NCBI GenBank assembly: GCA_024645005.1
Contig: JAHEGS010000004.1
Span: 1 to 44,319, forward strand
Length of the DNA: 44,319 bases
Origin: Bacteroidota bacterium
Lineage (GTDB): Bacteria > Bacteroidota > Bacteroidia > NS11-12g > UBA9320
Reading direction: 5' to 3'
Numbering within the stretch: the first letter of the stretch is position 1; the number at the start of each line of letters is the position of its first letter. Below, in pieces: positions 261 to 27,990 of the stretch. The position numbers were made by a program, and so were the translations under genes. A model generated the notes under the pieces. The model worked only from the letters and a program-made list of their open reading frames with translations, made no database searches and had not been told where the DNA came from.

Positions 261-1046
261 ATGAAAAGAATGATATACCAAGTCGCCGTGGGCGCCAAAT
301 CTAGATTATATGAACACTGCATTGAGTCATGTGCAAACTATTGTGAAGCCCATGGCATTGATCATATTGTTCAACGAATTCCAATCTTAAAAATCAAACC
401 TGATGTATTTGCTACAAATCGTAGTAAAGAGTCATATGAGAAACATGGCGGATTTCTTCCAATTTATGAGAAGGAAAACGCCTTTTCTTATTGGGACAAA
501 TACGACCAAATTGCAATCATTGATGCCGACATTTGGATTAGACCTGGTTCTAAAAATATTTTTGATGAGATCAAACCTGATGTTTGCTTTGCTGGTGTTA
601 TTGAAAAGCAGATGCCAATAACTGCAAAATACAAACAGAAGATCCATAGTTATTCACGTATGCAATATGGACCAATTAAATTAGATTGGAACTGGGATGA
701 TGCAGGAGGTGATTTCTTTAATATGGGTATGATGGTAATGAATAAGAGCATTACTAAATATCTGAATGGAGAAACACCAGAACAGTTTATTCGCCGACCA
801 GAATTTAAAGGCTTTGTTGATGGACTTGGTGGTTGGAAATGGTCAACTGATCAAACACTTTTAAATTACTGGCTAAAGAAATATAATATTCCAGTACAGC
901 ACTTGCATTCTGAATGGAATTCATTATATGGTGCTTTAAGAGATAATAGATATTATAAAGAAGCCCAATTTGTGCATTTCTTTTTAAAGGATCATTTACC
1001 AAATCGTGGTGAAAACGTAGAAGAATTAATGAAAGCAGTTCAATGA
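261..1046 (+). CDS. Glycosyltransferase (DxD type)
   Basis: YDQIAIIDADIWIRPG has a DxD motif in GT context. 4-bp overlap with the next gene. Confidence 0.7.
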   Translation: MKRMIYQVAVGAKSRLYEHCIESCANYCEAHGIDHIVQRIPILKIKPDVFATNRSKESYEKHGGFLPIYEKENAFSYWDKYDQIAIIDADIWIRPGSKNIFDEIKPDVCFAGVIEKQMPITAKYKQKIHSYSRMQYGPIKLDWNWDDAGGDFFNMGMMVMNKSITKYLNGETPEQFIRRPEFKGFVDGLGGWKWSTDQTLLNYWLKKYNIPVQHLHSEWNSLYGALRDNRYYKEAQFVHFFLKDHLPNRGENVEELMKAVQ

Positions 1047-2185
1047 AGATATTTGTTTTAGGTGGTGATGGGTTTTGTGGTTGGCCTACAGCTTTAAAAT
1101 TAGCTAAAGAAAACCATGAAGTATGGATTATTGATAACCTATCACGGCGCAGAATAGATGAAGAACTAGAAAGCAATTCACTTACAGATATTGAGCCTAT
1201 TGGTAAAAGAATTGCTACTGCTCGTAATTTAGGATGGGATATTAAATTTTGGAATATTGATATTGCTAAATCTTATGGGTATTTTGCAAAAGCAGTAAAC
1301 GAATTACAACCAGATGCCATTGTGCACTTTGCAGAACAAAGAGCAGCACCATATTCTATGCTCGGCCAAACCGAACGGCGATACACAGTTGATAATAATA
1401 TAACCACAACACATAATGTATTAAACGCAATTGTAGATCATTGTCCAAGTTGTCATCTAGTCCACTTAGGTACAATGGGTGTTTATGGATATTCAAAAGA
1501 AATGGGTTCTATCCCAGAAGGTTATTTGGATATTACTGTAAAAGAAACTGGCGAAGATGCAAGTATTTTATATCCTACAAATCCAGGTAGTGTATATCAC
1601 ATGACAAAGTCTATGGATCAATTATTATTTCAGTTTTATAATAAAAACTGGAACATTCATATTACAGACTTGCATCAAGGTATTGTTTGGGGAACTCAAA
1701 CTGAAGAAACATCTATGGATAAAACACTAGTTAATAGATTTGATTATGATGGAATTTATGGTACTGTTCTAAATAGATTTATTTCACAAGCAGCAACTGG
1801 AAAAAATCTAAGTGTTTATGGTACAGGTGGCCAAAAGAGAGCATTTATTCATATCCAAGATACTGCAAATTGTGTTAAATTAGCCATTGAAAATGTACCA
1901 GATAATAAAAAAGTTAGAATTTTAAATCAAGTTTCAGAAGTACGTTCAGTAAAAGAATTAGCAATGATTATATCAAATTCATATGGAACTCCTATTGAAT
2001 TTTTAGATAATCCAAGAAAAGAACTAGCAGAAAATGATCTTGCAGTTGATAATCAAGGGCTAAAAAGTTTAGGGTTTCAACCTATTACACTAACTGCAAA
2101 TCTGATAGACGATGTACGATATATTGCCACCGAAATGCATAAAAATTTAAAAGAAGAAAATATCCTTAATTCTCCAAAGTGGTAA
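1043..2185 (+). CDS. sqdB-like: SQD1/SqdB-like UDP-sulfoquinovose synthase (extended SDR/NAD-dependent epimerase family)
   Basis: GGDGFCGW nucleotide-binding motif, IVHFAEQRAAPYSM, HLGTMGVYG, YHMTK (YxxxK), TDLHQGIVWGTQTEET, NRFDYDGIYGTVLNRFISQAATG. These match signature blocks of plant and cyanobacterial SQD1. Confidence 0.85.
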   Translation: MKIFVLGGDGFCGWPTALKLAKENHEVWIIDNLSRRRIDEELESNSLTDIEPIGKRIATARNLGWDIKFWNIDIAKSYGYFAKAVNELQPDAIVHFAEQRAAPYSMLGQTERRYTVDNNITTTHNVLNAIVDHCPSCHLVHLGTMGVYGYSKEMGSIPEGYLDITVKETGEDASILYPTNPGSVYHMTKSMDQLLFQFYNKNWNIHITDLHQGIVWGTQTEETSMDKTLVNRFDYDGIYGTVLNRFISQAATGKNLSVYGTGGQKRAFIHIQDTANCVKLAIENVPDNKKVRILNQVSEVRSVKELAMIISNSYGTPIEFLDNPRKELAENDLAVDNQGLKSLGFQPITLTANLIDDVRYIATEMHKNLKEENILNSPKW

Positions 2186-2189
2186 TATA

Positions 2190-2993
2190 ATGAAAACCAT
2201 AATTTATCAATATTGGGATGGAAACCCTACACCAGGTAATACTGCTGGTGTAGCAGCGATGGAAGAATATGCTAACAGAATAGGTGCTGAATATCTCTAT
2301 GAAGATAATCCAAGATGGAAAACAGATCTAGGTAAATATTCTCCTCATTATGGTGCTTTTAAACCACTCTTTACCGAATCGTTTTATAATTATGACTATG
2401 TGTTATTTGCTGATACAGATGTTTTCCCTGTAGCAAATTTAAATGAAAATATATTTGAACAGTTTTATAATACAGATATTGAATTAGGTATCTGTGAGGA
2501 ATGGCAGCAGCCTGAGGTTAGAAAAAAACATGACCTTGGTGGTATTAATAACGCCAACGATGAATATTGGGTTAAGTTAATAGAAAAAACATGGCCAGTT
2601 AAAATGCCTAGAACTGAAAATAAAGCACCTAGGGTATATAATTCTGGTGTGGTTGTATATTCAAATGCGGGTATGATAAAGGCTAGAGAAAATTTTATTG
2701 ATTTTAAAACATATGTGAATTTTATATCTAGCCATAGATTGCCACCATTCTATACGTGTGATCAGCCGTATCTACACGCTATGATACAGGCATGTAGATT
2801 TAAATGGAAAACAATGGACTATAAATGGAACAGTAGTGTACACTATGTACCAGGTACAAAAGATCCTAGACCTGTAAATGATTTAAGAAATAATCCAAAT
2901 TTTGTGCACATACAATTAAGAAATGCAGATAATTATAATAGTGATAAATTATATAGAATAACGAATTTACCGGTAAAGGAATGGAATTTATGA
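2190..2993 (+). CDS. Glycosyltransferase (DxD type)
   Basis: YDYVLFADTDVFPV DxD motif; same gene family as the neighbours. Confidence 0.7.
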   Translation: MKTIIYQYWDGNPTPGNTAGVAAMEEYANRIGAEYLYEDNPRWKTDLGKYSPHYGAFKPLFTESFYNYDYVLFADTDVFPVANLNENIFEQFYNTDIELGICEEWQQPEVRKKHDLGGINNANDEYWVKLIEKTWPVKMPRTENKAPRVYNSGVVVYSNAGMIKARENFIDFKTYVNFISSHRLPPFYTCDQPYLHAMIQACRFKWKTMDYKWNSSVHYVPGTKDPRPVNDLRNNPNFVHIQLRNADNYNSDKLYRITNLPVKEWNL

Positions 2994-3568
2994 GTAAAAT
3001 CTTTGATTACACATATGAAGAATATATAAAGGCACAAAAGAAACTTACAGATTTTAAGTTTGGCCGTATTGTATATGTAAAAAAAGACACTATAAGTGAA
3101 ATTTATAAACACTTTGCAAAAGATAATATTTTATCAATTTTATGCCATGGAACTAGATCAGGTGAAGAACAATCCCATTTTAAAAAATATTTTAACTGTT
3201 ATGTTATGGGGTCTGAATTATGTGAAAAAGCAACAGATACACCAGATACTACTATTTGGGATTTTAATAAAGTAAAAGAGGATTGGATTGGTAAATTTGA
3301 TTTAGTATACAGCAATGCCTTTGATCACTGTATTACACCAAGTGAAACAATTGGTGTTTGGCGAGATCAATTAAAGCCAGATGGTAGACTTCTTATTGAG
3401 TGGTCTGATTCACAGAATGGTAAAGGTGTTACAAATGGTGATCCACTAAATGCTACTGAAGAAGAAGTGACTGCATGGGCTGAAGAAAATGGTATGTTTT
3501 TAGAAGCAGAACTTATGAAAAAGAAATGTAAACACGCCGGTACTATTTTGGTTTATAAAAGAAAATGA
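2990..3568 (+). CDS. SAM-dependent methyltransferase-like protein
   Basis: ILSILCHGTRSGEE...VMGSEL...FDLVYSNAFDH...LKPDGRLLIEW is a class I MTase layout. ATGA overlap with the previous gene supports the start at 2990 rather than 2981. Confidence 0.6.
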   Translation: MSKIFDYTYEEYIKAQKKLTDFKFGRIVYVKKDTISEIYKHFAKDNILSILCHGTRSGEEQSHFKKYFNCYVMGSELCEKATDTPDTTIWDFNKVKEDWIGKFDLVYSNAFDHCITPSETIGVWRDQLKPDGRLLIEWSDSQNGKGVTNGDPLNATEEEVTAWAEENGMFLEAELMKKKCKHAGTILVYKRK

Positions 3569-4215
3569 AAAATTTAATACTACAACATTGGAATGGTCCG
3601 TTACCTTTATGGGCAGAAAAGTGTAAAAAAAGCATTGAGGATTATGCCGAGTTAGTCGGTGCTGATTATCAATTATTATCCGGGTATCCTTTTATTACAC
3701 CACCAGATAAATTCGAAATAAAGCCATGGACTGTAATACAAAAAATTCATATGTTAAGTGAAGTGTATGACAGTTATGATGATGTTTTAATGCTAGATAT
3801 GGACATGATGGCGATAAGCCGGTTCCCTGTCGATAATATTTTTAATTATGAAGGTATAGGCCGTTTACATTTAAAATCAATGTCTGGCCTTAATAACAGT
3901 AGATCCAAATTATGGCCTAAACTATATAAGGAAGGTGCTCCTGCATTTTTCGGTAATTGTGTAAAATTAACAAAAAGAGAAAGAGTTATTTTAAGAAGTG
4001 CTTGTGATAAACAGGTAATTTTAGATGCATCCAATGAGGATTTACCACCTAATGATGAAGTTATTATGCACTATTTAATGCATAAAACAAAAGTATTATC
4101 TGATAAAAACACATTGGAATTACCACATGACCGTTTTTGTGATTTAGTAGAAGAAGCACACCCAGAAGCAACTATTATCCATTTTTGTGGACCTAGGAAA
4201 AATCATATCAAATGA
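3565..4215 (+). CDS. Glycosyltransferase (DxD type)
   Basis: YDDVLMLDMDMMAISRFPVDNIF. ATGA-type overlap with both neighbours. Confidence 0.65.
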   Translation: MKNLILQHWNGPLPLWAEKCKKSIEDYAELVGADYQLLSGYPFITPPDKFEIKPWTVIQKIHMLSEVYDSYDDVLMLDMDMMAISRFPVDNIFNYEGIGRLHLKSMSGLNNSRSKLWPKLYKEGAPAFFGNCVKLTKRERVILRSACDKQVILDASNEDLPPNDEVIMHYLMHKTKVLSDKNTLELPHDRFCDLVEEAHPEATIIHFCGPRKNHIK

Positions 4216-4910
4216 AAAATTTAATCGTGCAACATTTTCATCCACAATACGAAAACGTGGGCAAACCTATGCCATGGATTGTGGAAAAAAGTACGGATAA
4301 TATTAAGCGATATGCAGAACAATTAGGCGCAGAATACAAACTATTGGATGGTGAACCATTCAGAAAAGATTTACGAGCACAATGTCAAAAGCTTTGTGTG
4401 TTAAATGAAGAATTTGATGAATACGATAATATCGCTGTATTCGATACAGATATGTTTTTAGTAAATGGCTGTAAGGAAAATATATTTGAAGCAAAGGGTA
4501 TTGGTACTCACCCAGAAGTTCACAAAACTAGAGTTATGGGAGATTTCCAAAGAGCATTTCCCAAACTGGCTAATCCTAATTATCCTATACTATCCGGATC
4601 TGCATATTCATTTCCAAAAGAATTTAGACAATTAATGCGTAAACAAATAAATTCAGGAATGGAATCAGTATTTAAATTAATAAGCCCTAAACCGTTTGTT
4701 GATGAGGGCATTTTACATGTACTAATGCAAAAGGCCAAATTTAAGCTAGACAATTACCTAGATGAAAAATGGTCATATAGTAGCTATTTGCCAGAGTTAA
4801 GTAAAGCATATATAATTCATGTGCGATATACACCATTTAAAAAAGGTGGGCCTATTGATAAAAGAGATGAGAATTGTAAAAAGTTGATGGATGAAGGAAT
4901 TATACAGTGA
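4212..4910 (+). CDS. Glycosyltransferase (DxD type), divergent paralogue of the preceding gene
   Basis: YDNIAVFDTDMFLVNGCKENIFE; starts MKNLIVQHF versus MKNLILQHW in the preceding gene. Confidence 0.65.
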   Translation: MKNLIVQHFHPQYENVGKPMPWIVEKSTDNIKRYAEQLGAEYKLLDGEPFRKDLRAQCQKLCVLNEEFDEYDNIAVFDTDMFLVNGCKENIFEAKGIGTHPEVHKTRVMGDFQRAFPKLANPNYPILSGSAYSFPKEFRQLMRKQINSGMESVFKLISPKPFVDEGILHVLMQKAKFKLDNYLDEKWSYSSYLPELSKAYIIHVRYTPFKKGGPIDKRDENCKKLMDEGIIQ

Positions 4911-5602
4911 AAGCCTATGTAATAACCTTAGATGATAATGTGCTTAGTCAAGATGGTGCTAATAATCTTATTACATCATCAAAAAAAGTAAAAAATGATT
5001 TTAACATTGAAATATTTGATGCTGTAACTTCAAAGATGGCCAATATTATTTTAATGGGAAATGGGCTAAAATGGAAATATCCTTGGGAAGGTCAAGAAAC
5101 AGATCTAAAAACCGGTTTAATTAAAACTGCATATCCAACACAGGTAAAGGAAAAAAGAATTGCCTGTGCCATGAGCCATTGGTTATTATGGAAAAAATGT
5201 GAATCATTAAATGAACCAATTTTAATATTAGAACACGATGCAATTTTTATTGAAAAATTAGATTATAAATCTATTTTAAAAAGTAATTTTAATATCATTG
5301 GAATTAATAGTCCTGCAGCTGCAACTCGTAAGGCACACCAGTTTCATGATATTGTGCAAAGTAAACCCGCCTGGATTCAACCAGTGCCAGATATTGATGA
5401 GTTTAATATCCCCCAAGGACTGGCTGGAAATTCTGCATATATAATTAAACCAGAAGGCGCTAAACTAATAATTGCAGCTAGTCATGAGCATGGTGTTTGG
5501 CCTAATGATGCTCTAATGTGTAAACAAATTATCCCCAACCTTGGTGTGACGAAAAAATACTTTACAAGAATCCAAGGGTTACCCTCAACAACAGTGAATT
5601 AA
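4907..5602 (+). CDS. GT25-like glycosyltransferase (LPS biosynthesis type)
   Basis: KAYVITLDDN...ACAMSHWLLWKKCESLNEPILILEHDAIF, typical GT25 blocks. Confidence 0.7.
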   Translation: MKAYVITLDDNVLSQDGANNLITSSKKVKNDFNIEIFDAVTSKMANIILMGNGLKWKYPWEGQETDLKTGLIKTAYPTQVKEKRIACAMSHWLLWKKCESLNEPILILEHDAIFIEKLDYKSILKSNFNIIGINSPAAATRKAHQFHDIVQSKPAWIQPVPDIDEFNIPQGLAGNSAYIIKPEGAKLIIAASHEHGVWPNDALMCKQIIPNLGVTKKYFTRIQGLPSTTVN

Positions 5603-5604
5603 AT

Positions 5605-6174
5605 ATGAAAAAATCAGTATTAAATCATGTAAAAACATTAAAACAATTTCACACAGAAATTTATAAACAGCAAGAAGAAAACCACAGAGAACACTATTGC
5701 GCAGTACATGATGCTATTGTAAAATATTGGAATTTAGGTAAGTGTCAATCATATATGGAATTAGGTGTTCATCAGGGCGGTACTGCATCAAATATTTTAT
5801 TACAAAAACCAAAAAAAGTAGTATTGGTTGATAAAAATTTAGATCTGTACAGAGAATATTTAGAACCAATTGCCATTCATTATTGTGATCAAAATGACAT
5901 TGATTTAAAAACAAAAGAGTGCGAGTCAATTGATCTATATGCAATGGAAGTAGAATGTGATATGCTTTTTATTGATAGTTATCATAAACCAGATTATATG
6001 ATCCAAGAGTTATCTACTCATGCACATAATACTAAGAAATATATAATAGCACATGATACATATTCTGTTAAATCATTGCACGAATGTTTAGAAAATTTTG
6101 CGATGAAAAATAAATGGGAAGTATTAGAATATAATAAAAAAAATGTGGGTTATACAGTATTGGGAAGAAAATGA
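5605..6174 (+). CDS. Class I methyltransferase-like (Methyltransf_24 / cephalosporin-hydroxylase-like)
   Basis: SYMELGVHQGGTASNILLQKPKKVVLVDKN...MLFIDSYHKPDY...IIAHDTY. Confidence 0.6.
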   Translation: MKKSVLNHVKTLKQFHTEIYKQQEENHREHYCAVHDAIVKYWNLGKCQSYMELGVHQGGTASNILLQKPKKVVLVDKNLDLYREYLEPIAIHYCDQNDIDLKTKECESIDLYAMEVECDMLFIDSYHKPDYMIQELSTHAHNTKKYIIAHDTYSVKSLHECLENFAMKNKWEVLEYNKKNVGYTVLGRK

Positions 6175-6821
6175 AAGCTTTTGTAATTACAATTATGGAC
6201 AATGAAAAATCTGTACAATCTGCAATGCGTTGTATGAAATCTGCAGAGAAATACGGATTGCATGTAGAACATCATATAGCGACAACCCCTAAAGATAAAC
6301 CTTGGGAAATTCTCCACAAAAAAGGTATTTCCCCTCACGGATTTGTTGAACGATATTCTAGATTAGAAAATTGCATGGCATGTTTTTTATCACACCATTC
6401 ACTATGGGAAATGTCTGTAAAACTTGATGAACCAATTGTAGTCTTTGAACATGACGCAATTGTTACTGGAGAAGTTCCGATCAATGAGAAGTTTGATGGA
6501 TGCATGACTTTTTCCAAACCTTCATACGGTAAATTTAATACACCAATGAAATTGGGAGTTGATGGATTAGTTCAAAAGCAATACTTCGGTGGCGCGCATG
6601 GATATATGATTAACCCAAAGGGTGCGAAAGAATTTATTAAAAAGGCAAAAATAGATGCATCGCCTACTGATGTATTCATTAATTTAAAGAATTTTAGTTG
6701 GTTGCAAGAGTATTATCCATGGTCTTGTATGGCAGTGGATACATTTACTACAATCCAAAAAGATGATGGATGTCAAGCTAAACATAATTATAAAGACGGA
6801 TATGAGATAATTGATGCATAA
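6171..6821 (+). CDS. GT25-like glycosyltransferase
   Basis: KAFVITIMDNEKS...ACFLSHHSLWEMSVKLDEPIVVFEHDAIV...GGAHGYMINPKGAKEFI. Confidence 0.7.
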   Translation: MKAFVITIMDNEKSVQSAMRCMKSAEKYGLHVEHHIATTPKDKPWEILHKKGISPHGFVERYSRLENCMACFLSHHSLWEMSVKLDEPIVVFEHDAIVTGEVPINEKFDGCMTFSKPSYGKFNTPMKLGVDGLVQKQYFGGAHGYMINPKGAKEFIKKAKIDASPTDVFINLKNFSWLQEYYPWSCMAVDTFTTIQKDDGCQAKHNYKDGYEIIDA

Positions 6822-7491
6822 AATTATTGATGAATTGGTAATTACTGGTTGTGATTCTAAGACCGAATGGCAACTTCCTTGGTTTTTAGATAATTATTTA
6901 ACACACAACAAAACACCAATTTGTGTTGCTAATTTTGGTGTTTCAGAAGAAATTAGAAATTGGTTAGTGTCACACCCATTTATTCATTGTGTAATGGATT
7001 TAAAAGAAACAAGGGATATAAAGGCTTGGTTTTATAAACCAACTGCAATGTTACATTTACCTGCTAAAAAAGGTGTTTGGCTAGATACAGATTGTCAAGT
7101 ATTGGATAATATTAGTAAAATATTTAAACTTATTGAACAAGATAAGCTTTTAATGGCAGTTGATAAACCATGGCTAAAGCGCCGTGGTGAATTATGGCAC
7201 AATAGTGGAGTTGTTGGTTGGAGTGGACGACCAGAAATTTTAAATAAATGGATTGCTGCAATTAAAGAAAACCCTAGTGTCGGAGATCAGGAAGTTTTAC
7301 ACAGTATTCTAAATCCTATTACCATGATGAAATATATAAAAGAGTTACCAAACGAATATAATTGGTTACGATTACAAATTGAAAATGATGGTGAAGATAG
7401 CCCTAATAAAAAAATTGTACACTGGACCGGCGAAAAAGGTAATGATCGTATCAGGGGTATGATGAAAATAAAGGAGACAATTCGTGCCTAA
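6814..7491 (+). CDS. Glycosyltransferase (GT32/capsular-polysaccharide-synthesis type)
   Basis: GVWLDTDCQVLDNI DxD motif and HNSGVVGW. ATG at 6814 preferred over the TTG used in the ORF track. Confidence 0.6.
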   Translation: MHKIIDELVITGCDSKTEWQLPWFLDNYLTHNKTPICVANFGVSEEIRNWLVSHPFIHCVMDLKETRDIKAWFYKPTAMLHLPAKKGVWLDTDCQVLDNISKIFKLIEQDKLLMAVDKPWLKRRGELWHNSGVVGWSGRPEILNKWIAAIKENPSVGDQEVLHSILNPITMMKYIKELPNEYNWLRLQIENDGEDSPNKKIVHWTGEKGNDRIRGMMKIKETIRA

Positions 7492-8176
7492 AACAGTACA
7501 CGTTGTTGGTAATGGTGATTCAGCTACATTTTTTAATGAAGCACCTCGTAGAGGGTTAAAACTAGCATGTAATTTGGCACCATTTCCTATTGAAAATTGT
7601 TACGCATCATGCATTGTTGATTTTAAAATGATGAAAACAATTCAGAGTGGAGTTGTGGATGTACCTGGTGAATGGGTACTAGGAGCAAGACCAAAGATTT
7701 TTATGGAAAAAAATCCTGGTTTTAGAATGCAAAGAGCACATCAAATTAAAACATTCTATACCAAACTCCCAAAGTATGCTTCTAATTATACAGATTTAAA
7801 TTGCGGACATATGGCAGTTTACTTTGCTGCTGAACACTTAAAGGCAGATGTAATTCATATGTATGGTTTTGATTCAATCTTTGATTTTAATCTTAGAAGC
7901 TATACAGATACCTTTATTAATTCTGATAGAGGTAATATGAATAATAATAGATTATCCACTAATTGGAGACCGCTGTGGATGAATATGTTTAAAGACTTTG
8001 ACGGATCTGGTAAAAACCAGAAAACAGAGTTTGTATTACATCATATGCATGATAATTTAAAATTTAATCCAGGTAATAATGTTATTATTGAAAAATACGG
8101 CCGTAGGGGCGAGATAAAGCCTCCAGCTGATAAAGTAAAAGGTAGTTGGCAGCCACCTGCAAATGGGATAATGTAA
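7484..8176 (+). CDS. Putative glycosyltransferase-like protein with a GNGxS N-terminus (DUF115/CST-like)
   Basis: VHVVGNGDSATFF...NLAPFP...CIVDFKMM; last gene of the cassette, 8-bp overlap with the previous gene. Confidence 0.4.
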   Translation: MPKTVHVVGNGDSATFFNEAPRRGLKLACNLAPFPIENCYASCIVDFKMMKTIQSGVVDVPGEWVLGARPKIFMEKNPGFRMQRAHQIKTFYTKLPKYASNYTDLNCGHMAVYFAAEHLKADVIHMYGFDSIFDFNLRSYTDTFINSDRGNMNNNRLSTNWRPLWMNMFKDFDGSGKNQKTEFVLHHMHDNLKFNPGNNVIIEKYGRRGEIKPPADKVKGSWQPPANGIM

Positions 8177-9743: not shown

Positions 9744-9819
9744 GGTTCCGTAGCTCAGTGGATAGAGCAACAGCCTTCTAAGCTGTGGGTCGAGGGTTCG
9801 AATCCTTCCGGAATCGCCA
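9744..9819 (+). tRNA. tRNA-Arg(TCT), CCA encoded
   Basis: Acceptor GGTTCCG/CGGAATC, anticodon stem ACAGC-CTTCTAA-GCTGT, T-arm GGTTCGAATCC, 3' GCCA. Confidence 0.93.
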
Positions 9820-9823
9820 ATAT

Positions 9824-9899
9824 ACTCGGTTAGTTCAGCGGTTAGAACCACGTGCTCATAACGCGTTTGTCGGGGGTTCGAATCCCTCACCGAGTACCA
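9824..9899 (+). tRNA. tRNA with CAT anticodon (elongator Met or Ile2/lysidine type), CCA encoded
   Basis: Acceptor ACTCGGT/ACCGAGT, anticodon loop CTCATAA, T-arm GGTTCGAATCC, 3' ACCA. Confidence 0.9.
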
Positions 9900-12970: not shown

Positions 12971-13054
12971 GCCCGCGTGATGGAATGGTAGACATAACGG
13001 ACTTAAAATCCGTGGCCTTAAGGCGTGGGAGTTCGAATCTCCCCGTGGGTACCA
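12971..13054 (+). tRNA. tRNA-Leu(TAA), long variable arm, CCA encoded
   Basis: Acceptor GCCCGCG/CGTGGGT, anticodon stem ACGGA-CTTAAAA-TCCGT, T-arm AGTTCGAATCT, 3' ACCA. Confidence 0.92.
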
Positions 13055-15851: not shown

Positions 15852-15875
15852 GGGCCACTCTTTATGGGGTGGCCC
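15852..15875. terminator. Bidirectional terminator hairpin between convergent gene 32 and the tape-measure gene
   Basis: GGGCCAC-TCTTTATGGG-GTGGCCC. On the minus strand it is followed by TATTATTTTTA (U-rich). Confidence 0.65.
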
Positions 15876-17445
15876 CTCCCCAAATATTATCGGCTGCATC
15901 TGATGAATTTAATTGAAGTCCCATAACATTTGTATCACCTGCTTTAGTTACAGATTGATCAATTGTTTGTGAAACTAGTTGTGCACCAAGTTGTCCTTGT
16001 TGTCTAATCATTTGATCTCTTAAAATATTATTTAAGTCTTGTCTCATTGGAGCTCTACTCATATCTGCTTTTACTTGTACTGCAGCTGCTTCACCATCAG
16101 GGCCCACCATATAATCATAAGCATTATTTCCACCAAGACCGGTACCTTCTTTTAAATTAGATGGATAATCAATACCTATATCTTTAGCAGTTAACCCTTC
16201 AAATTCGCCGTGTTGACCACCATACATCATTTCCGATGGCGTTGGAGTTCTTTTACCAGTTTTTATTTGCTCTAATTTTTTATTTTTTTCTATATTATCA
16301 AAATATCCACGTCTTTCATTTTGTAGGGCTTCAAGTTCTGCTCTTAATTTTTCAAATTCTATTTTTTCAGGTTTATTTGCAATATAATTATCACCTGCAA
16401 TATATTTGTATTGGCCTGCTAATTCAGCCATTCTAGCTTCTTTTTGTGAAATTTGACTTGCAACTTCCGGATTCACACTTGCATATTCATCTACCATTGT
16501 ACTTGTTATTTGAGTTTTACCAATACCCGAATTATTCAAAATAGTTTTACCTGCATCAATTAAATATGTTTTTATATCAGCAAATCTATTAGACAACCAA
16601 TTGTTTATATCTTTCATAATATCATTTATGGTATTTTTTAATGATGCCCAACCATCATCTACAAATTTCTTAAAATCATCATTTGTATTATAAGCAATAA
16701 TACCTGCACCAATTGCTGCAATAGCCATAACAATAATTCCAGCAGGTGTAAATAAAAATGGTAATACTTTTGTTAAAAGAGCAGGTATGAGTGCAGGTAA
16801 AAATAGTGCTCCTGCAGTTGCCGCATATTGAGTCATTTCTGTTGCAAATTTTGGATCATCAATATATTTTCCAAATTCATCTTCATAATAACCTTGAATC
16901 TTTTCAGCTGTTTCCTTATTCCATATAGCACCAAGTGCAGCACCTATGATACCACCTTTTAATGCGCCACCAGGGCCTCCAATAAGAAATCCAATTGCTC
17001 CACCCAATGCACCCCATTCTGTAACAGAACCTAAAATTTCACTACCTGTTAATTTTTTAACTGCTTCACCAAGCTCATCTGCTAATACAGCACCAAGAAA
17101 TGCCGGACCTACTCTATTTAATAAAAATGAAAATAATTTAGAAACATATGGTAATAAATTACCTACATCAAAAACACTTTTTAAACCACCAAAAAGACCT
17201 TTATCACCCTTTTGCGCAGCTCTACTTACTTGTGTAGCACTGTTACTTTTATCTTTTGCCCCTTCACGTTTATTTTCCTCATCTTGTTTTTCATCATCAG
17301 CAGCTGCTTCTTTTATCATTTTAAAGAAATCATCAAAAGATGATTTAAGGGCATCAACTCTATTTGAAGTATAGGTTTGTTTAGCACCTAAAACTGCAGT
17401 TTGTTTTTTCAAAGATTTATTGATATCAGAAAGTGATGTTGCCAT
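15862..17445 (-). CDS. Tape-measure-like tail protein (positional gp29 equivalent)
   Basis: 527 aa with several Gly/Ala-rich hydrophobic stretches and coiled regions; directly after the gp26/gp51-like genes. Confidence 0.6.
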   Translation of the reverse strand: MATSLSDINKSLKKQTAVLGAKQTYTSNRVDALKSSFDDFFKMIKEAAADDEKQDEENKREGAKDKSNSATQVSRAAQKGDKGLFGGLKSVFDVGNLLPYVSKLFSFLLNRVGPAFLGAVLADELGEAVKKLTGSEILGSVTEWGALGGAIGFLIGGPGGALKGGIIGAALGAIWNKETAEKIQGYYEDEFGKYIDDPKFATEMTQYAATAGALFLPALIPALLTKVLPFLFTPAGIIVMAIAAIGAGIIAYNTNDDFKKFVDDGWASLKNTINDIMKDINNWLSNRFADIKTYLIDAGKTILNNSGIGKTQITSTMVDEYASVNPEVASQISQKEARMAELAGQYKYIAGDNYIANKPEKIEFEKLRAELEALQNERRGYFDNIEKNKKLEQIKTGKRTPTPSEMMYGGQHGEFEGLTAKDIGIDYPSNLKEGTGLGGNNAYDYMVGPDGEAAAVQVKADMSRAPMRQDLNNILRDQMIRQQGQLGAQLVSQTIDQSVTKAGDTNVMGLQLNSSDAADNIWGGATP

Positions 17446-17615
17446 TAACTATTTGCCGCTTCTTTTTCTCTAAGATATTCTAACAGTAATGCCAGATATA
17501 CTTCTCTCTCCCAAGGTAACATATTATCTATTTCAGTTAACGAATAATGAAAGTGTTGTAGCAATTGAAAATTAGTTCTATAAAAATTTTCAAGTGTCTC
17601 ATGAGAGAGGTTTAT
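17445..17615 (-). CDS. gp51-like baseplate hub protein, no conventional start codon; possibly translated by -1 frameshifting from gp26
   Basis: (ATA)NLSHETLENFYRTNFQLLQHFHYSLTEIDNMLPWEREVYLALLLEYLREKEAANS*. An in-frame stop lies upstream with no ATG/GTG/TTG before the apparently conserved region. Confidence 0.6.
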   Translation of the reverse strand: MNLSHETLENFYRTNFQLLQHFHYSLTEIDNMLPWEREVYLALLLEYLREKEAANS

Positions 17616-18343
17616 GAAAAAAAATCTTGTAGGCCCTCCAGATTATGTTTATGTTTCTTATTACAATCCAAGCACGTGTATTCCATATTTAATGTTATTT
17701 TAGGAATTTTTTCTATAAATTCTCTCACCTTTGCAAATTGCTCTGAAGTAAGTGAATTCACAAATGTCTCAATTTCTTCCTTTGATTCATCCTTAAGTGA
17801 AATATGCTCATCTTCAGTTAAAATAGAATCCATGCATGTTATTAACATTTCAAATAATATTTCAGTACCCATGCGATCCGTATTCATAATTTTTTCATTC
17901 ATGGTAAAATCATAATATGATGGGTATTTCATTTTTAGTGAAATGTCTTCAGTAATTTTTACAGTTGATGGTTTTACATCTCCTGTTAATTTAATTTGAT
18001 CCAAATCAATTTCAACATCATTATCATGTGAGCAAGAGGGGCATTTAGCATTGATTGTAACTTTTTCCCCCACCGATTTAGATCTAATTTTTGTAAAAAT
18101 ATAATCTACATCAAATGTTGATAATTTATTTACATCGTATGCATTATCTGTACAGTTAGCAACACAGTTCAAAATAGCGTTAATAATTTGTTTTTGATCT
18201 TGTGATTCATATGCAATTAAAAGTAATTTTTGTTCCTTGATTAAAAATGGTCTGTATTTTAATTCTTCATTTGTTGAAGGTATATTTAATATATACTGTG
18301 AAGATTCATTCAAACGTGGTAGTGCCATTATGCGTTTCTCCAA
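17612..18343 (-). CDS. 26: gp26-like baseplate hub protein/chaperone
   Basis: MALPRLNESSQYILNIPSTNEELKYRPFLIKEQKLLLIAYESQDQKQIINAI...CPSCSHDNDVEIDLDQI; likely start at MALPRL. Confidence 0.8.
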   Translation of the reverse strand: MEKRIMALPRLNESSQYILNIPSTNEELKYRPFLIKEQKLLLIAYESQDQKQIINAILNCVANCTDNAYDVNKLSTFDVDYIFTKIRSKSVGEKVTINAKCPSCSHDNDVEIDLDQIKLTGDVKPSTVKITEDISLKMKYPSYYDFTMNEKIMNTDRMGTEILFEMLITCMDSILTEDEHISLKDESKEEIETFVNSLTSEQFAKVREFIEKIPKITLNMEYTCLDCNKKHKHNLEGLQDFFS

Positions 18344-18567
18344 ACATCCTTTGCATTCACCCGAATAAACGGTTTATTTGTTTCATTATTATTTGGATTC
18401 TTAATAGTCAACATAACGTTTTTGCCTTTTTTAAATGCTTCTACTTTTGCAAGCATTTGAGCAGTACTACCAATCCATTCTCTACGTGCTTCTTTTGTCC
18501 AACGAGAATTTATAGATTTACGTTGTCCTTTTGAAACTTGATTTGCTCTTTGTTTTTTCTTAGCCAT
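18328..18567 (-). CDS. Conserved T4-like phage small basic protein
   Basis: MAKKKQRANQVSKGQRKSINSRWTKEARREWIGST...; located in the tail gene run. Confidence 0.5.
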   Translation of the reverse strand: MAKKKQRANQVSKGQRKSINSRWTKEARREWIGSTAQMLAKVEAFKKGKNVMLTIKNPNNNETNKPFIRVNAKDVWRNA

Positions 18568-18576
18568 TATAACCCC

Positions 18577-19245
18577 TTATAAACTACCTAGGCCACCAAA
18601 AGCTTGGATCCAACCTTGGCCGCTGCTTGTTGGTTCCCAATTTGTATATGACATTGTCACGGATACTTGTGCAATTCCACCCATTTCATTACCTAATTCT
18701 ATTTGTGCTACGTCTAGAGGAAATGCATCTTTCAATCTAACTGTATATACAGAACCACCACCTAACCCAACATTTACTCTAATAGGCCCAGCACCAAAAC
18801 CAATATTTTTTAATGGTTTTCTTAACTGATGAATTTTAATATCTTTACTGTATTGTGATTTATACCCAACAGTCCCTTGATTTTCATCTAATACAATTTT
18901 TCTCCATTCATCAAAATATTTTTTTGTGCCATAGTCGTTCATTAAATAAAATGTCATATTCACATCAGGTGCAATATATCCATATGGAACTTTTTGCATT
19001 TCCATACCCATTGGTCTATCATGTGTTAATAGAGATTTGCCTGGCATTGTAACTGATGAACACAATAAATTTAAATCACCCCCACCAGAACCAAGACCGA
19101 CACCACTAGTTAAAAGAGTTGTCAACTGGCCAAGAAAACCACCACCTGATGCAAAGGTTGTGGGTAATTCAACTAAAAATTGATTTGCAATGGCAAAACC
19201 TAGTTTACTTGATGCCAATGATTTTAATTGATCTACTGATGTCAT
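18577..19245 (-). CDS. Tail-tube-fold protein (gp54-like baseplate tail tube initiator or tube)
   Basis: FLVELPTTF...CSSVTMPGKSL...PYGYIAPDVNMTFYLMNDYGTKKYFDEWRK...VSVTMSYTNWEP has a gp19/gp54-like layout. Confidence 0.6.
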   Translation of the reverse strand: MTSVDQLKSLASSKLGFAIANQFLVELPTTFASGGGFLGQLTTLLTSGVGLGSGGGDLNLLCSSVTMPGKSLLTHDRPMGMEMQKVPYGYIAPDVNMTFYLMNDYGTKKYFDEWRKIVLDENQGTVGYKSQYSKDIKIHQLRKPLKNIGFGAGPIRVNVGLGGGSVYTVRLKDAFPLDVAQIELGNEMGGIAQVSVTMSYTNWEPTSSGQGWIQAFGGLGSL

Positions 19246-22405: not shown

Positions 22406-23772
22406 TGAGTACTCCTAAAACAATAATGAATGACGTTAATTCGTCTGATTTTTTAATAGAGACAATATTATTAATTTCAGATAGAGCAATTGAGCCTCTG
22501 GAGTTAAAATTTTCTGTCACTGATATTGCAATATTCGAGCATTTGGATAAACCATATCTAACTGGTTATATCACACTTTTAGACAGTAAAAGATTATTTG
22601 ATAGGTTTGATTTTCAAGGTTATGAGAAAATTGTTATATCAATAAAACGAACTGAAAAATCACCGGAGTATATTAAGACTTTTTTCATCGAGCAAATTGT
22701 AAAAGGTATAAAAGTGAATGATACTTCTGAAGTGTTCACTTTTAGATTAATCGAAGAAACACTTTTCCATTCAAATTTACAAAATGTAAATAGAGCATAT
22801 TCTGGAATTCCCTTTGATATTATTAGCCAAATTAGTAATGATTATTTAGAAAAACCAATTGAAAAAATTGGTGAGGTTGATTATCAAAGGAATATGAAAG
22901 TTATTATCCCTAATATGCATCCCATTCAAAGTATGTATTGGATAAAGGAACGAGCTACAACAGTAGATGGTTACCCACAATTTTTATTTTCAACTTGGGC
23001 AAAGACTAACTTATTATATGCAGATTTGGGAACTCTTTTAGAACAAAAACCTATAAATGAAAATACGCCATTCATGTATGCTATGAATGCCGGACAAGCA
23101 CCAAATGCAAATAAATTTTTTGGTATACAATCTTATAATTATAATAAAAATGAAAATTTATTTAAAATGATTGATCAAGGTGTTGTTGGTGCAAAACATG
23201 AATTTTTTGATACTACAAATAATGAAATGTATTCAGTAGATTTTGATATTAATAAAGAATTATCAGATATGGTAACTGAGAAAAATGCTAGACAACCAAG
23301 TTTGAATTTATCTAATGAGTTTAAATTTAATGAAAAATCTTTGGGTCAATTAAATAGTAAAGTTATAACAAATATTTCTAGTACCGGTGCATATAGAATC
23401 CCAGATGGCTATTATAATACATATGGCGAAGAAAATGATGTTGGAGGTCATAAAAAGAAAGTAATAGCACAAGCACTGAAAGCAATGATGAATAAAACAC
23501 CAATTGAGATTTCAGTGAGAGGTAGAGAGTTTCTTTCTGCACAAGAATCAGGGCCGAATCATAAAACAATTGGTAATATAGTTAAGATCATTTTCCTTGC
23601 GAACTCGCCAGGGGCTCTTAAAAATAAACCAAAAATAGACCCTTATAAATCTGGTGACTATCTAATTTTCAGTGTAAAGCACTTAATGCAATCACAAAGA
23701 TTTGATTCTGTTTTAACTTGTGTTAAAATTGCAAATTATACTTCAGATGAATTTCCTATTGGGGCAATGTAA
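22405..23772 (+). CDS. gp27-like baseplate hub protein
   Basis: 455 aa between gp53 and the gp5-like ORF; DIAIFEHLDKPYLTGYITLLDSKRLFDRFDFQGYEKI hub-fold pattern. Confidence 0.6.
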   Translation: MSTPKTIMNDVNSSDFLIETILLISDRAIEPLELKFSVTDIAIFEHLDKPYLTGYITLLDSKRLFDRFDFQGYEKIVISIKRTEKSPEYIKTFFIEQIVKGIKVNDTSEVFTFRLIEETLFHSNLQNVNRAYSGIPFDIISQISNDYLEKPIEKIGEVDYQRNMKVIIPNMHPIQSMYWIKERATTVDGYPQFLFSTWAKTNLLYADLGTLLEQKPINENTPFMYAMNAGQAPNANKFFGIQSYNYNKNENLFKMIDQGVVGAKHEFFDTTNNEMYSVDFDINKELSDMVTEKNARQPSLNLSNEFKFNEKSLGQLNSKVITNISSTGAYRIPDGYYNTYGEENDVGGHKKKVIAQALKAMMNKTPIEISVRGREFLSAQESGPNHKTIGNIVKIIFLANSPGALKNKPKIDPYKSGDYLIFSVKHLMQSQRFDSVLTCVKIANYTSDEFPIGAM

Positions 23773-24671
23773 TGAGACAAGTACCTAAACTAAATTTAGA
23801 ATATTATGGAGATGAAACTCGTTGGTTTGTCGGAGTGGCAGTTGATATTAATGATCCACTACAACTCGGCCGGGTGAAAGTAAGAATATATGGTATTCAC
23901 ACAGGTAATCAGTCTGATATATCACATTTTGATTTGCCATGGGCACAGGTAGTAACTCCTATTACAGAGGGTGGTAGTAGTGGTATCGGCGCAAATACTG
24001 GCATTAAACCCATGGCATTGGTGTTTGGTTTATTCATGGATGGTAAAAATTCACAAATGCCAATCATTATAGGTTCATTACCAAAATTTGAAACATCATC
24101 ATCTCAAAGCCCACCAGTAGCACCAGTTGATGATCCCATAAGACCATCCAATAATTCATTAGTTGCGACCACAACATTACCAGCTAAAGAAATTGATGAT
24201 AAGTATTTAGCTAAATATGGTACAGAAAATAAAGAAAGAGCCTATAAATTCTTTTTATCCAATGAGGGTGGTTCATTACAAACACACCAATCTGCTGGAA
24301 TTGTAGGTAATCTAATTGTGGAATCAAATGTTGATCCTAATGCATTAAATGAACCAGAAGGATCATATGGTATTGCTCAATGGAATCCATCTGCAAATGC
24401 TGGAAATAGAAAAGGAAAATTGGAAACCTTTTGTGCAGATCCGTCACGCAATTTACCAGTAAATAGCCTATATGCACAATTACTTTTTATTAATTATGAG
24501 TTATTCGTAGTTCCAGAAAATTTTGGCTTAAAACCGCTGCAGTCTTCCAAATCTGCAGAAGAAGCTGCAGAAGTATTTGCTAAATCTTATGAAAAGCCTA
24601 AAACTGGTACCGGCACAATTAAGAAAAGAAAAGAAACGGCCAAAGGTTTATTAGAAGGATTTGAAACATGA
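23772..24671 (+). CDS. gp5-like baseplate hub: N-terminal OB fold plus Phage_lysozyme2-like domain
   Basis: RWFVGVAVDINDPLQLGRVKVRIYGIH (gp5 OB) and SAGIVGNLIVESNVDPNALNEPEGSYGIAQWNPS (tail lysozyme type). Confidence 0.75.
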   Translation: MRQVPKLNLEYYGDETRWFVGVAVDINDPLQLGRVKVRIYGIHTGNQSDISHFDLPWAQVVTPITEGGSSGIGANTGIKPMALVFGLFMDGKNSQMPIIIGSLPKFETSSSQSPPVAPVDDPIRPSNNSLVATTTLPAKEIDDKYLAKYGTENKERAYKFFLSNEGGSLQTHQSAGIVGNLIVESNVDPNALNEPEGSYGIAQWNPSANAGNRKGKLETFCADPSRNLPVNSLYAQLLFINYELFVVPENFGLKPLQSSKSAEEAAEVFAKSYEKPKTGTGTIKKRKETAKGLLEGFET

Positions 24672-26535: not shown

Positions 26536-27990
26536 ATGGCTGAAAACGAAGATGATTTAGGACAAACACTTGAAGATGGATTTAAAGATCCACAAAATGT
26601 TTTTCCTAGAGTAAAGTATTATAACAAGCAATCTACCAACTTTGCTGCTAGAAATATCCAAAACAATGATTTATATATTGGTGGTGGTGACGTTGCTCTT
26701 AGTTTAGGGTTACAACCCCATACAGATACACAGTATCCTATGAATCAGGTTAGAGAAACAGTTTCTGGTCATGTAACAGAAATTGATGATACTCCTGGTG
26801 CTGAGAGAATTTTATTTAAACATAAAACTGGTGCTGGTGTTGAGATGAGAGCTGATGGTACCGTTATCATCAGTTCAACAAATAATACTGTTCAGATTAC
26901 CGGTGGAGATCAAAAGGTCATTGTTGAAGGTGACGGTGAAATAGTATATCATGGTAACCTTAAATTAACAGTAAACGGTAATTTTGATTTAAATGTAGGT
27001 GGTGATTTTAATGTTACAACCGGTGGTGATAATGTTGAAACTGTAAAAGGCAGTTATAAACAAACTGTATCAAATTTCCATGAAACAACAGTGACAAAAA
27101 GTAAATCACAATTTGTTGGTAAAAATACATCAAGTACTGTTTTGGGTGATAATAATACAACAGTAAAAGGTGAAAACAATAATTATAATCAAGGGGATTA
27201 TAATCTTCACGTTGGGTATTTTGATCCGGAAACTGGTGAGGATATTGGAACACTTCGAATATCAGCTACTGATGAAATCATGATGTCTGCAGCAAATATG
27301 AACGGAATGGCTACCGATATGACGTGGGTGGGAGATCATGGTGATATTGGTGGTGATAATATAGTTATGCACAATTATAATATGTACACCGGCCATTCTA
27401 TAGATGTTGGTGATACACTTACAGTTCCAACCATTTATAATGATACTCAAGTTACCAGTGGTCATATGAATATTCCTGTTGTATATGGTGATTTGCAAGG
27501 TACTGCAACTCAGGCGATGGTATCCAATCAAGCAGGACTTCATCCATCTAGTGGTGCTCATGCCGGCGCGGGATATGGTTACACAGCTGCAACTGACACT
27601 ACAGCAGATATACCAGTTGATCCATTTTTAAGAACAAGAGTAAATACCGCAATTGCGGATGAATACCTATATAGAAGTGATAGAGGTATTTCAGATGTGA
27701 ATATTGATTTTGGTGGAGAAATGCTTGATACTGTAGATAAATCTAGACCTTATGATAATATTAGCCAACGTAAATTAACCACACCTGAAATCAGATCAAA
27801 ATTAAGAGATCCAAATACACTTCGAAATGAAACATTTATTAATGCTCAAATTTTGGAAGGTAAATTATCAGCTGATTATATTAATCCTGTACCACCATTT
27901 GGATACGGACGTGTTGTAAATAAAGGAACAACTCCAATACGTGGTTCTGCCACATTACCTAATAGTGATATCACAAAGCGAGTTATATAA
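26536..27990 (+). CDS. gp5 C-terminal-like beta-helical spike protein
   Basis: VNGNFDLNVGGDFNVTTGGDNVETVKGSYKQTV...KGENNNYNQGDYNLHVG repeats typical of the gp5C/VgrG spike. Confidence 0.7.
   Translation: MAENEDDLGQTLEDGFKDPQNVFPRVKYYNKQSTNFAARNIQNNDLYIGGGDVALSLGLQPHTDTQYPMNQVRETVSGHVTEIDDTPGAERILFKHKTGAGVEMRADGTVIISSTNNTVQITGGDQKVIVEGDGEIVYHGNLKLTVNGNFDLNVGGDFNVTTGGDNVETVKGSYKQTVSNFHETTVTKSKSQFVGKNTSSTVLGDNNTTVKGENNNYNQGDYNLHVGYFDPETGEDIGTLRISATDEIMMSAANMNGMATDMTWVGDHGDIGGDNIVMHNYNMYTGHSIDVGDTLTVPTIYNDTQVTSGHMNIPVVYGDLQGTATQAMVSNQAGLHPSSGAHAGAGYGYTAATDTTADIPVDPFLRTRVNTAIADEYLYRSDRGISDVNIDFGGEMLDTVDKSRPYDNISQRKLTTPEIRSKLRDPNTLRNETFINAQILEGKLSADYINPVPPFGYGRVVNKGTTPIRGSATLPNSDITKRVI

Follow-up and report, generated by a model that had tools for sequence, protein, structure and literature searches.

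Genetic organization of the gp26/gp51 region

The analysed window is a 44,319-nt stretch of a binned genome assembly (contig JAHEGS010000004.1). On its minus strand it contains a gp26-family coding sequence (17612..18328; 238 aa), corresponding to the predicted short tail assembly chaperone (TAC-N), which is located between tail tube and tape-measure-like genes. The assignment is based on matches to T4_baseplate (PF12322, 5.5e-63) in Pfam and to phrog_150 (4.7e-64) in PHROG, as well as on the start codon, an ATG at 18328 (MALP...) that is kept in relatives. The upstream neighbours are genes for the tail tube (18577..19245, minus strand; phrog_45, 1.9e-28), a DNA end protector and head closure. 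On the other side, a gp51-like C-terminal extension (17445..17618, minus strand), comprising 57 codons (FINLSHETLENFYR...EAANS) and a stop, is readable after a −1 shift. It matched phrog_634, “baseplate hub assembly catalyst” (1.8e-22), and additionally the C-terminal end of phrog_150. Both domains of the T4-like gp26/gp51 (TAC) family, i.e. the gp26-family domain and the gp51 C-domain, are thus found at this locus. The next ORF (15862..17445, minus strand; 527 aa) is tape-measure-like, as judged from its position and from weak matches to PHROG tape measure families (best 3.3e-13); it starts at a TAATG in which the ATG overlaps the gp51 stop by one shared base.

The structure of gp26 was predicted with high confidence (pLDDT 91) and the model matched predicted baseplate hub proteins. 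Comparison of this model with solved structures gave nothing significant (HK97 TAC, 2ob9: E 2.9, prob 0.30, TMt 0.48). The gp51 part was modelled as four helices (pLDDT 87); a fold search with the 60-aa gp51 domain produced no significant match, and PDB sequence searches identified no relative of either gp26 or the gp51 part.

Several other features of the window were recorded. A 79-aa basic ORF with a weak match to an unknown PHROG (18331-18567, minus strand) lies between the tail tube gene and gp26 and overlaps the gp26 start. On the plus strand, a gp5-like baseplate hub/tail lysozyme gene is seemingly split into two ORFs (23772-24671 and 26536-27990, covering positions 10-114 and 331-564 of phrog_430, respectively) with a 621-aa ORF between them. 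The region 1043-8176 (plus strand) carries a series of ORFs of 190-380 aa, mostly without a Pfam match, which include an NAD-dependent epimerase and family 25 and family 8 glycosyltransferases. Two stretches of the plus strand, 9744-9899 and 12971-13054, together hold three tRNA genes: Arg(tct), Met(cat) and Leu(taa).

The 3′ end of gp26 reads ...CTG GAG GGC CTA CAA GAT TTT TTT TCA TAA... on the minus strand. It contains a T TTT TTT slippery heptamer (17618..17624) in the zero-frame register, enclosed in an 8-T run (17617-17624), and, 9 nt 5′ of the heptamer, the sequence GGAGGG (17634..17639), a Shine-Dalgarno (SD)-like candidate stimulator. The zero-frame TAA stop (17612..17614) follows one codon (TCA) after the heptamer. 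The heptamer has the form X XXY YYZ and is located inside the overlap of the gp26 and gp51 ORFs, the gp51-like −1 frame being open from 17642 to 17445 on inspection of the reading frames. The sequence and coordinates given in the original prediction were verified, as was the in-register placement of the heptamer. A run of seven T's is not in itself rare in this AT-rich window (27 T7 words observed, 54 expected).

The gp51-like frame had been described as lacking ATG, GTG and TTG ahead of its conserved part. This is the case: the first such codon, a TTG, falls at residue 22 of P0002, within NFQLLQ and already inside the domain, and the next candidate start is an ATG at residue 36 of P0002. Conceptual translation of the predicted gp26-gp51 fusion gives the peptide DFFFINLSHETLENFYR across the junction. 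The prediction of a fusion is supported, but not its length of about 299 aa, since translation from the conserved ATG would yield 294 aa; the larger figure fits an upstream TTG start in the mechanical ORF list.

Conservation of the predicted slip site among T4-like phages

The junction was compared across 203 loci from viral contigs, a second T4-like contig of the same assembly (L002) and annotated phages. The resulting 208 sequences represent 207 loci with both parts (the window being counted twice), 146 distinct junctions and, after clustering, 39 representatives. The junction counts refer to related, non-independent sequences, in which run length, stop codon and flanks are nonetheless highly variable.

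This analysis revealed that the gp51 part lies in the −1 frame relative to gp26 in all 207 loci, which supports the originally proposed reading as a programmed −1 shift. The sequence T TTT TTN occurs in the slipping register in 146/146 junctions and 39/39 representatives, placed two to three codons ahead of the gp26 stop in 144 of the 146. Away from the 3′ end, the same word in the same register was found at only 20 of 33,309 gp26 codons (0.06%), so its presence at the junctions is not due to chance. The P-site codon is TTT at all 146 junctions, compared with 76% of Phe codons elsewhere, and the codon preceding it ends in T in every case; the A-site codon varies between Phe and Leu (TTT 61, TTC 55, TTA 29, TTG 1). 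It is therefore the bases, and not the amino acids, that are kept. The T runs are 6 to 9 long, with exactly six T's at 85 junctions and 8 or 9 at 44. The original prediction had proposed aligning the junction in relatives, and the alignment agreed with it: the T run is conserved at all 146 junctions and, as in the window, ATG, GTG and TTG are absent before the conserved domain in 82 of them.

The same frame relation is present in the cultured isolates P-SSM2, S-PM2, HTVC008M, Melnitz and phiM7. The slippery heptamer was also detected in Sinorhizobium phage phiM7, the KVP40-like Vibrio phage VH1_2019, Rhizobium phages RHph_Y68 and IC12, Stenotrophomonas phage Yut2, Acinetobacter phage SH-Ab 15599 and Nitratidesulfovibrio phage SRB7757. 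At the L002 locus (contig C94) the T4-like gp26/gp51 junction is diverged and shows the T TTT TTT signal as well, so that fragments of two or more T4-like phages are present in the bin.

None of the 15 annotated records in which gp26 is followed by the gp51 frame contains a joined gp26-gp51 gene. In these records gp51 is missing, begun at an internal Met or given as an independent gene; the annotations of L006, L220, L221, L005, L224, L007 and L223 omit gp51 or use an internal start, with loss of conserved N-terminal residues.

The gp51 frame had a pN/pS of 0.21 in a set of 15 close relatives, and the remaining two frames gave dN/dS values of 0.89 and 2.8 and appear unselected. These substitution patterns show purifying selection acting on the gp51 part.

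Candidate stimulatory signals and possible alternative routes to gp51

The GGAGGG of the window forms a duplex of −9.8 kcal/mol with the anti-SD sequence, the strongest among the gp26 stretches tested. In the 39 representatives the SD-like site had a mean of −6.0 kcal/mol, compared with −0.7 kcal/mol elsewhere in gp26, and its pairing exceeded that of coding-matched EG/KG sites by a modest margin (p 0.008, with a small control set). Glu at this site is encoded by GAG in 69/100 cases, compared with 24% elsewhere. The element singled out in the original prediction is thus conserved, and is stronger than coding requires.

No significant RNA structure was found downstream of the slip site in the window (z −0.6). 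In an exploratory comparison of the 39 representatives, the first 40 nt downstream were more strongly folded at six-T sites than at longer runs (z −1.42 vs −0.12, p 0.005); over 66 nt the difference was not significant (p 0.31). Examples among the six-T sites, likewise exploratory, are the hairpins of P-SSM2 (11 bp) and of L086 and L059 (8 bp). A 7-8 bp hairpin directly after the gp26 stop was considered as a family-wide stimulator and rejected. It is fully formed in only 11/142 sequences, its covariation only slightly exceeds that given by column composition (0.54 vs 0.50 when shuffled), and it is confined to some of the T TTT TTA phages, other clades having different hairpins.

It is possibly a new detail that six-T phages tend toward a downstream hairpin and that phages with longer T runs, including that of the window, do without it. 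A tentative extension, which we consider somewhat less probable than its opposite, is that the T4 superfamily uses one −1 shift in two regimes, in which long runs (U UUU UUU) act without structure and six-T sites (U UUU UUC/A) act together with lineage-specific hairpins that begin about 5-7 nt downstream. If true, this would suggest that the ratio of short to long chaperone stays constant while the RNA signals turn over.

The gp51 part could alternatively be translated on its own as a small protein, with ribosomes that terminate on gp26 re-initiating, in a coupled manner, at a non-AUG codon. The candidate codons are the ATA that overlaps the gp26 stop in the window sequence and the TTG at residue 22. 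The ATA is not conserved, since the close relatives L103, L105 and L106 have GTA or ATT at this point, and the TTG falls within the conserved domain. In some relatives the junction has TAATG or TGATG (the KVP40-like phage, RHph_Y68 and Yut2), and the Ackermannviridae phages Ag3 and YC (L218 and L219) carry a TAATG overlap in the absence of a slippery run, which suggests re-initiation as an alternative route to gp51. At 26 of the 146 junctions an ATG follows the slip site ahead of the domain, and in those phages re-initiation could add a separate gp51. However, re-initiation would not need a slip run, yet the run is kept at all 146 junctions, even where an ATG is available. For the window we regard this explanation as very improbable.

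A fusion identical to that predicted might also arise by transcriptional slippage, with RNA polymerase stuttering on the T8 run. Stretches of 8 or 9 T's can favour slippage of the polymerase, and such stretches are found at 44/146 junctions, but at 85/146 the run is just six T's long, within a TTT TTC or TTT TTA codon context that suits tandem tRNA slippage. The SD-like element, together with the downstream hairpin of the six-T phages, also fits a ribosomal mechanism, and a transcriptional origin is accordingly considered highly unlikely. Still less credible is that the 8-T run has been misread or misassembled and conceals either a single gene fused in frame or a pair of normal genes. Homopolymers are error-prone, but cultured isolates and about 140 independent contigs share the frame relation with runs of 6 to 9, and run length and the following bases vary while the −1 relation never does.

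The comparative sequence data thus point to a programmed −1 ribosomal frameshift which, very probably, joins gp26 to the gp51-like frame. Most ribosomes would terminate at the gp26 TAA, giving the 238-aa short chaperone. A fraction of the ribosomes would be held through base-pairing between GGAGGG and the 16S anti-SD, and may then slip back by one base on T TTT TTT, pass the gp26 stop and read the gp51-like frame to produce the 294-aa gp26-gp51 fusion. We infer the slippage, its efficiency and the effect of the SD-like element from the nucleotide sequence. Together, the short and the long form would serve as tail assembly chaperone to the tape measure, whose gene comes next.

Comparison with T4 gp51 and other frameshift systems

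The original prediction had stated that it was aware of no such frameshift in T4-like gp26/gp51. This has to be corrected: a 2025 paper on phage Adele (PMC12846349) cites Vladimirov, Gautam and Davidson 2022 for poly-T −1 signals as known in T4-like TAC-N genes. Judging by its title and by the citations in PMC10274946 and PMC12846349, the subject of that study (Virology 566:9-15) is the TAC genes of T4-like phages. In the PRFect paper (PMC10274946), Vladimirov et al. 2022 is the reference given for T4-like phages in which there is no shift and the long form is encoded, already fused, by a gene apart from the short one. Full-text literature searches yielded no other reports of a T4-like gp26/gp51 frameshift. 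To the extent that these citing papers convey it, the mechanism is already described in kind for phages, and the window locus adds another instance. The −1 shift appears to be the common state of gp26/gp51 in marine and several other T4-like lineages, and the junctions make up a natural set of slip sites in which the trade-off among T-run length, SD-like element and hairpin could be measured.

The TAC locus of Vandenendeviridae and Andersonviridae, as presented for phage Adele (PMC12846349), shares with the window a myophage TAC in which a poly-T −1 signal precedes the tape measure. Its signal is an invariant GTTTTT and, according to the same source, it is usually misannotated as two genes. 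These phages belong to other families than the T4-like locus of the window, and the likeness is one of locus layout and signal.

T4 gp51 contains, in one frame, a gp26-family domain (residues 1-201, 3.9e-52) and a gp51 C-domain (residues 147-246, 1.2e-23), i.e. the same domain architecture as the predicted 294-aa fusion. T4 gp26 and T4 gp51 also align to each other. Genes 26 and 51 are divergent and separate in T4, Aeromonas phage 25 and Proteus phage phiP4-3, in which gp51 is fused in frame as a gene of its own, whereas in the window a single gene would serve for both forms and a shift would be needed. The in-frame gene 51 of T4, seemingly derived from a duplicated gene, appears to encode the product that these phages would make by frameshifting. 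Judged from distribution and not from a tree, the separate gene 51 of T4 is probably a derived exception.

The −1 frameshift of E. coli dnaX involves an SD-like element, the slippery sequence A AAA AAG and a strong downstream hairpin. The window shares with dnaX an SD-like element that precedes a slippery heptamer by about 10 nt, but has no significant hairpin.

Frameshifting in lambda gpG/gpGT and other TAC genes was reportedly described by Xu, Hendrix and Duda in 2004 and by Levin in 1993. The lambda slip site is G GGA AAG, whereas the one found here is T TTT TTN with an SD-like element upstream. The parallel with lambda G/GT drawn in the original prediction is apt in both position and logic, as the gene adjoins the tape-measure-like ORF, and the predicted gp26-gp51 fusion has, by analogy, the logic of a G/GT-type tail assembly chaperone.
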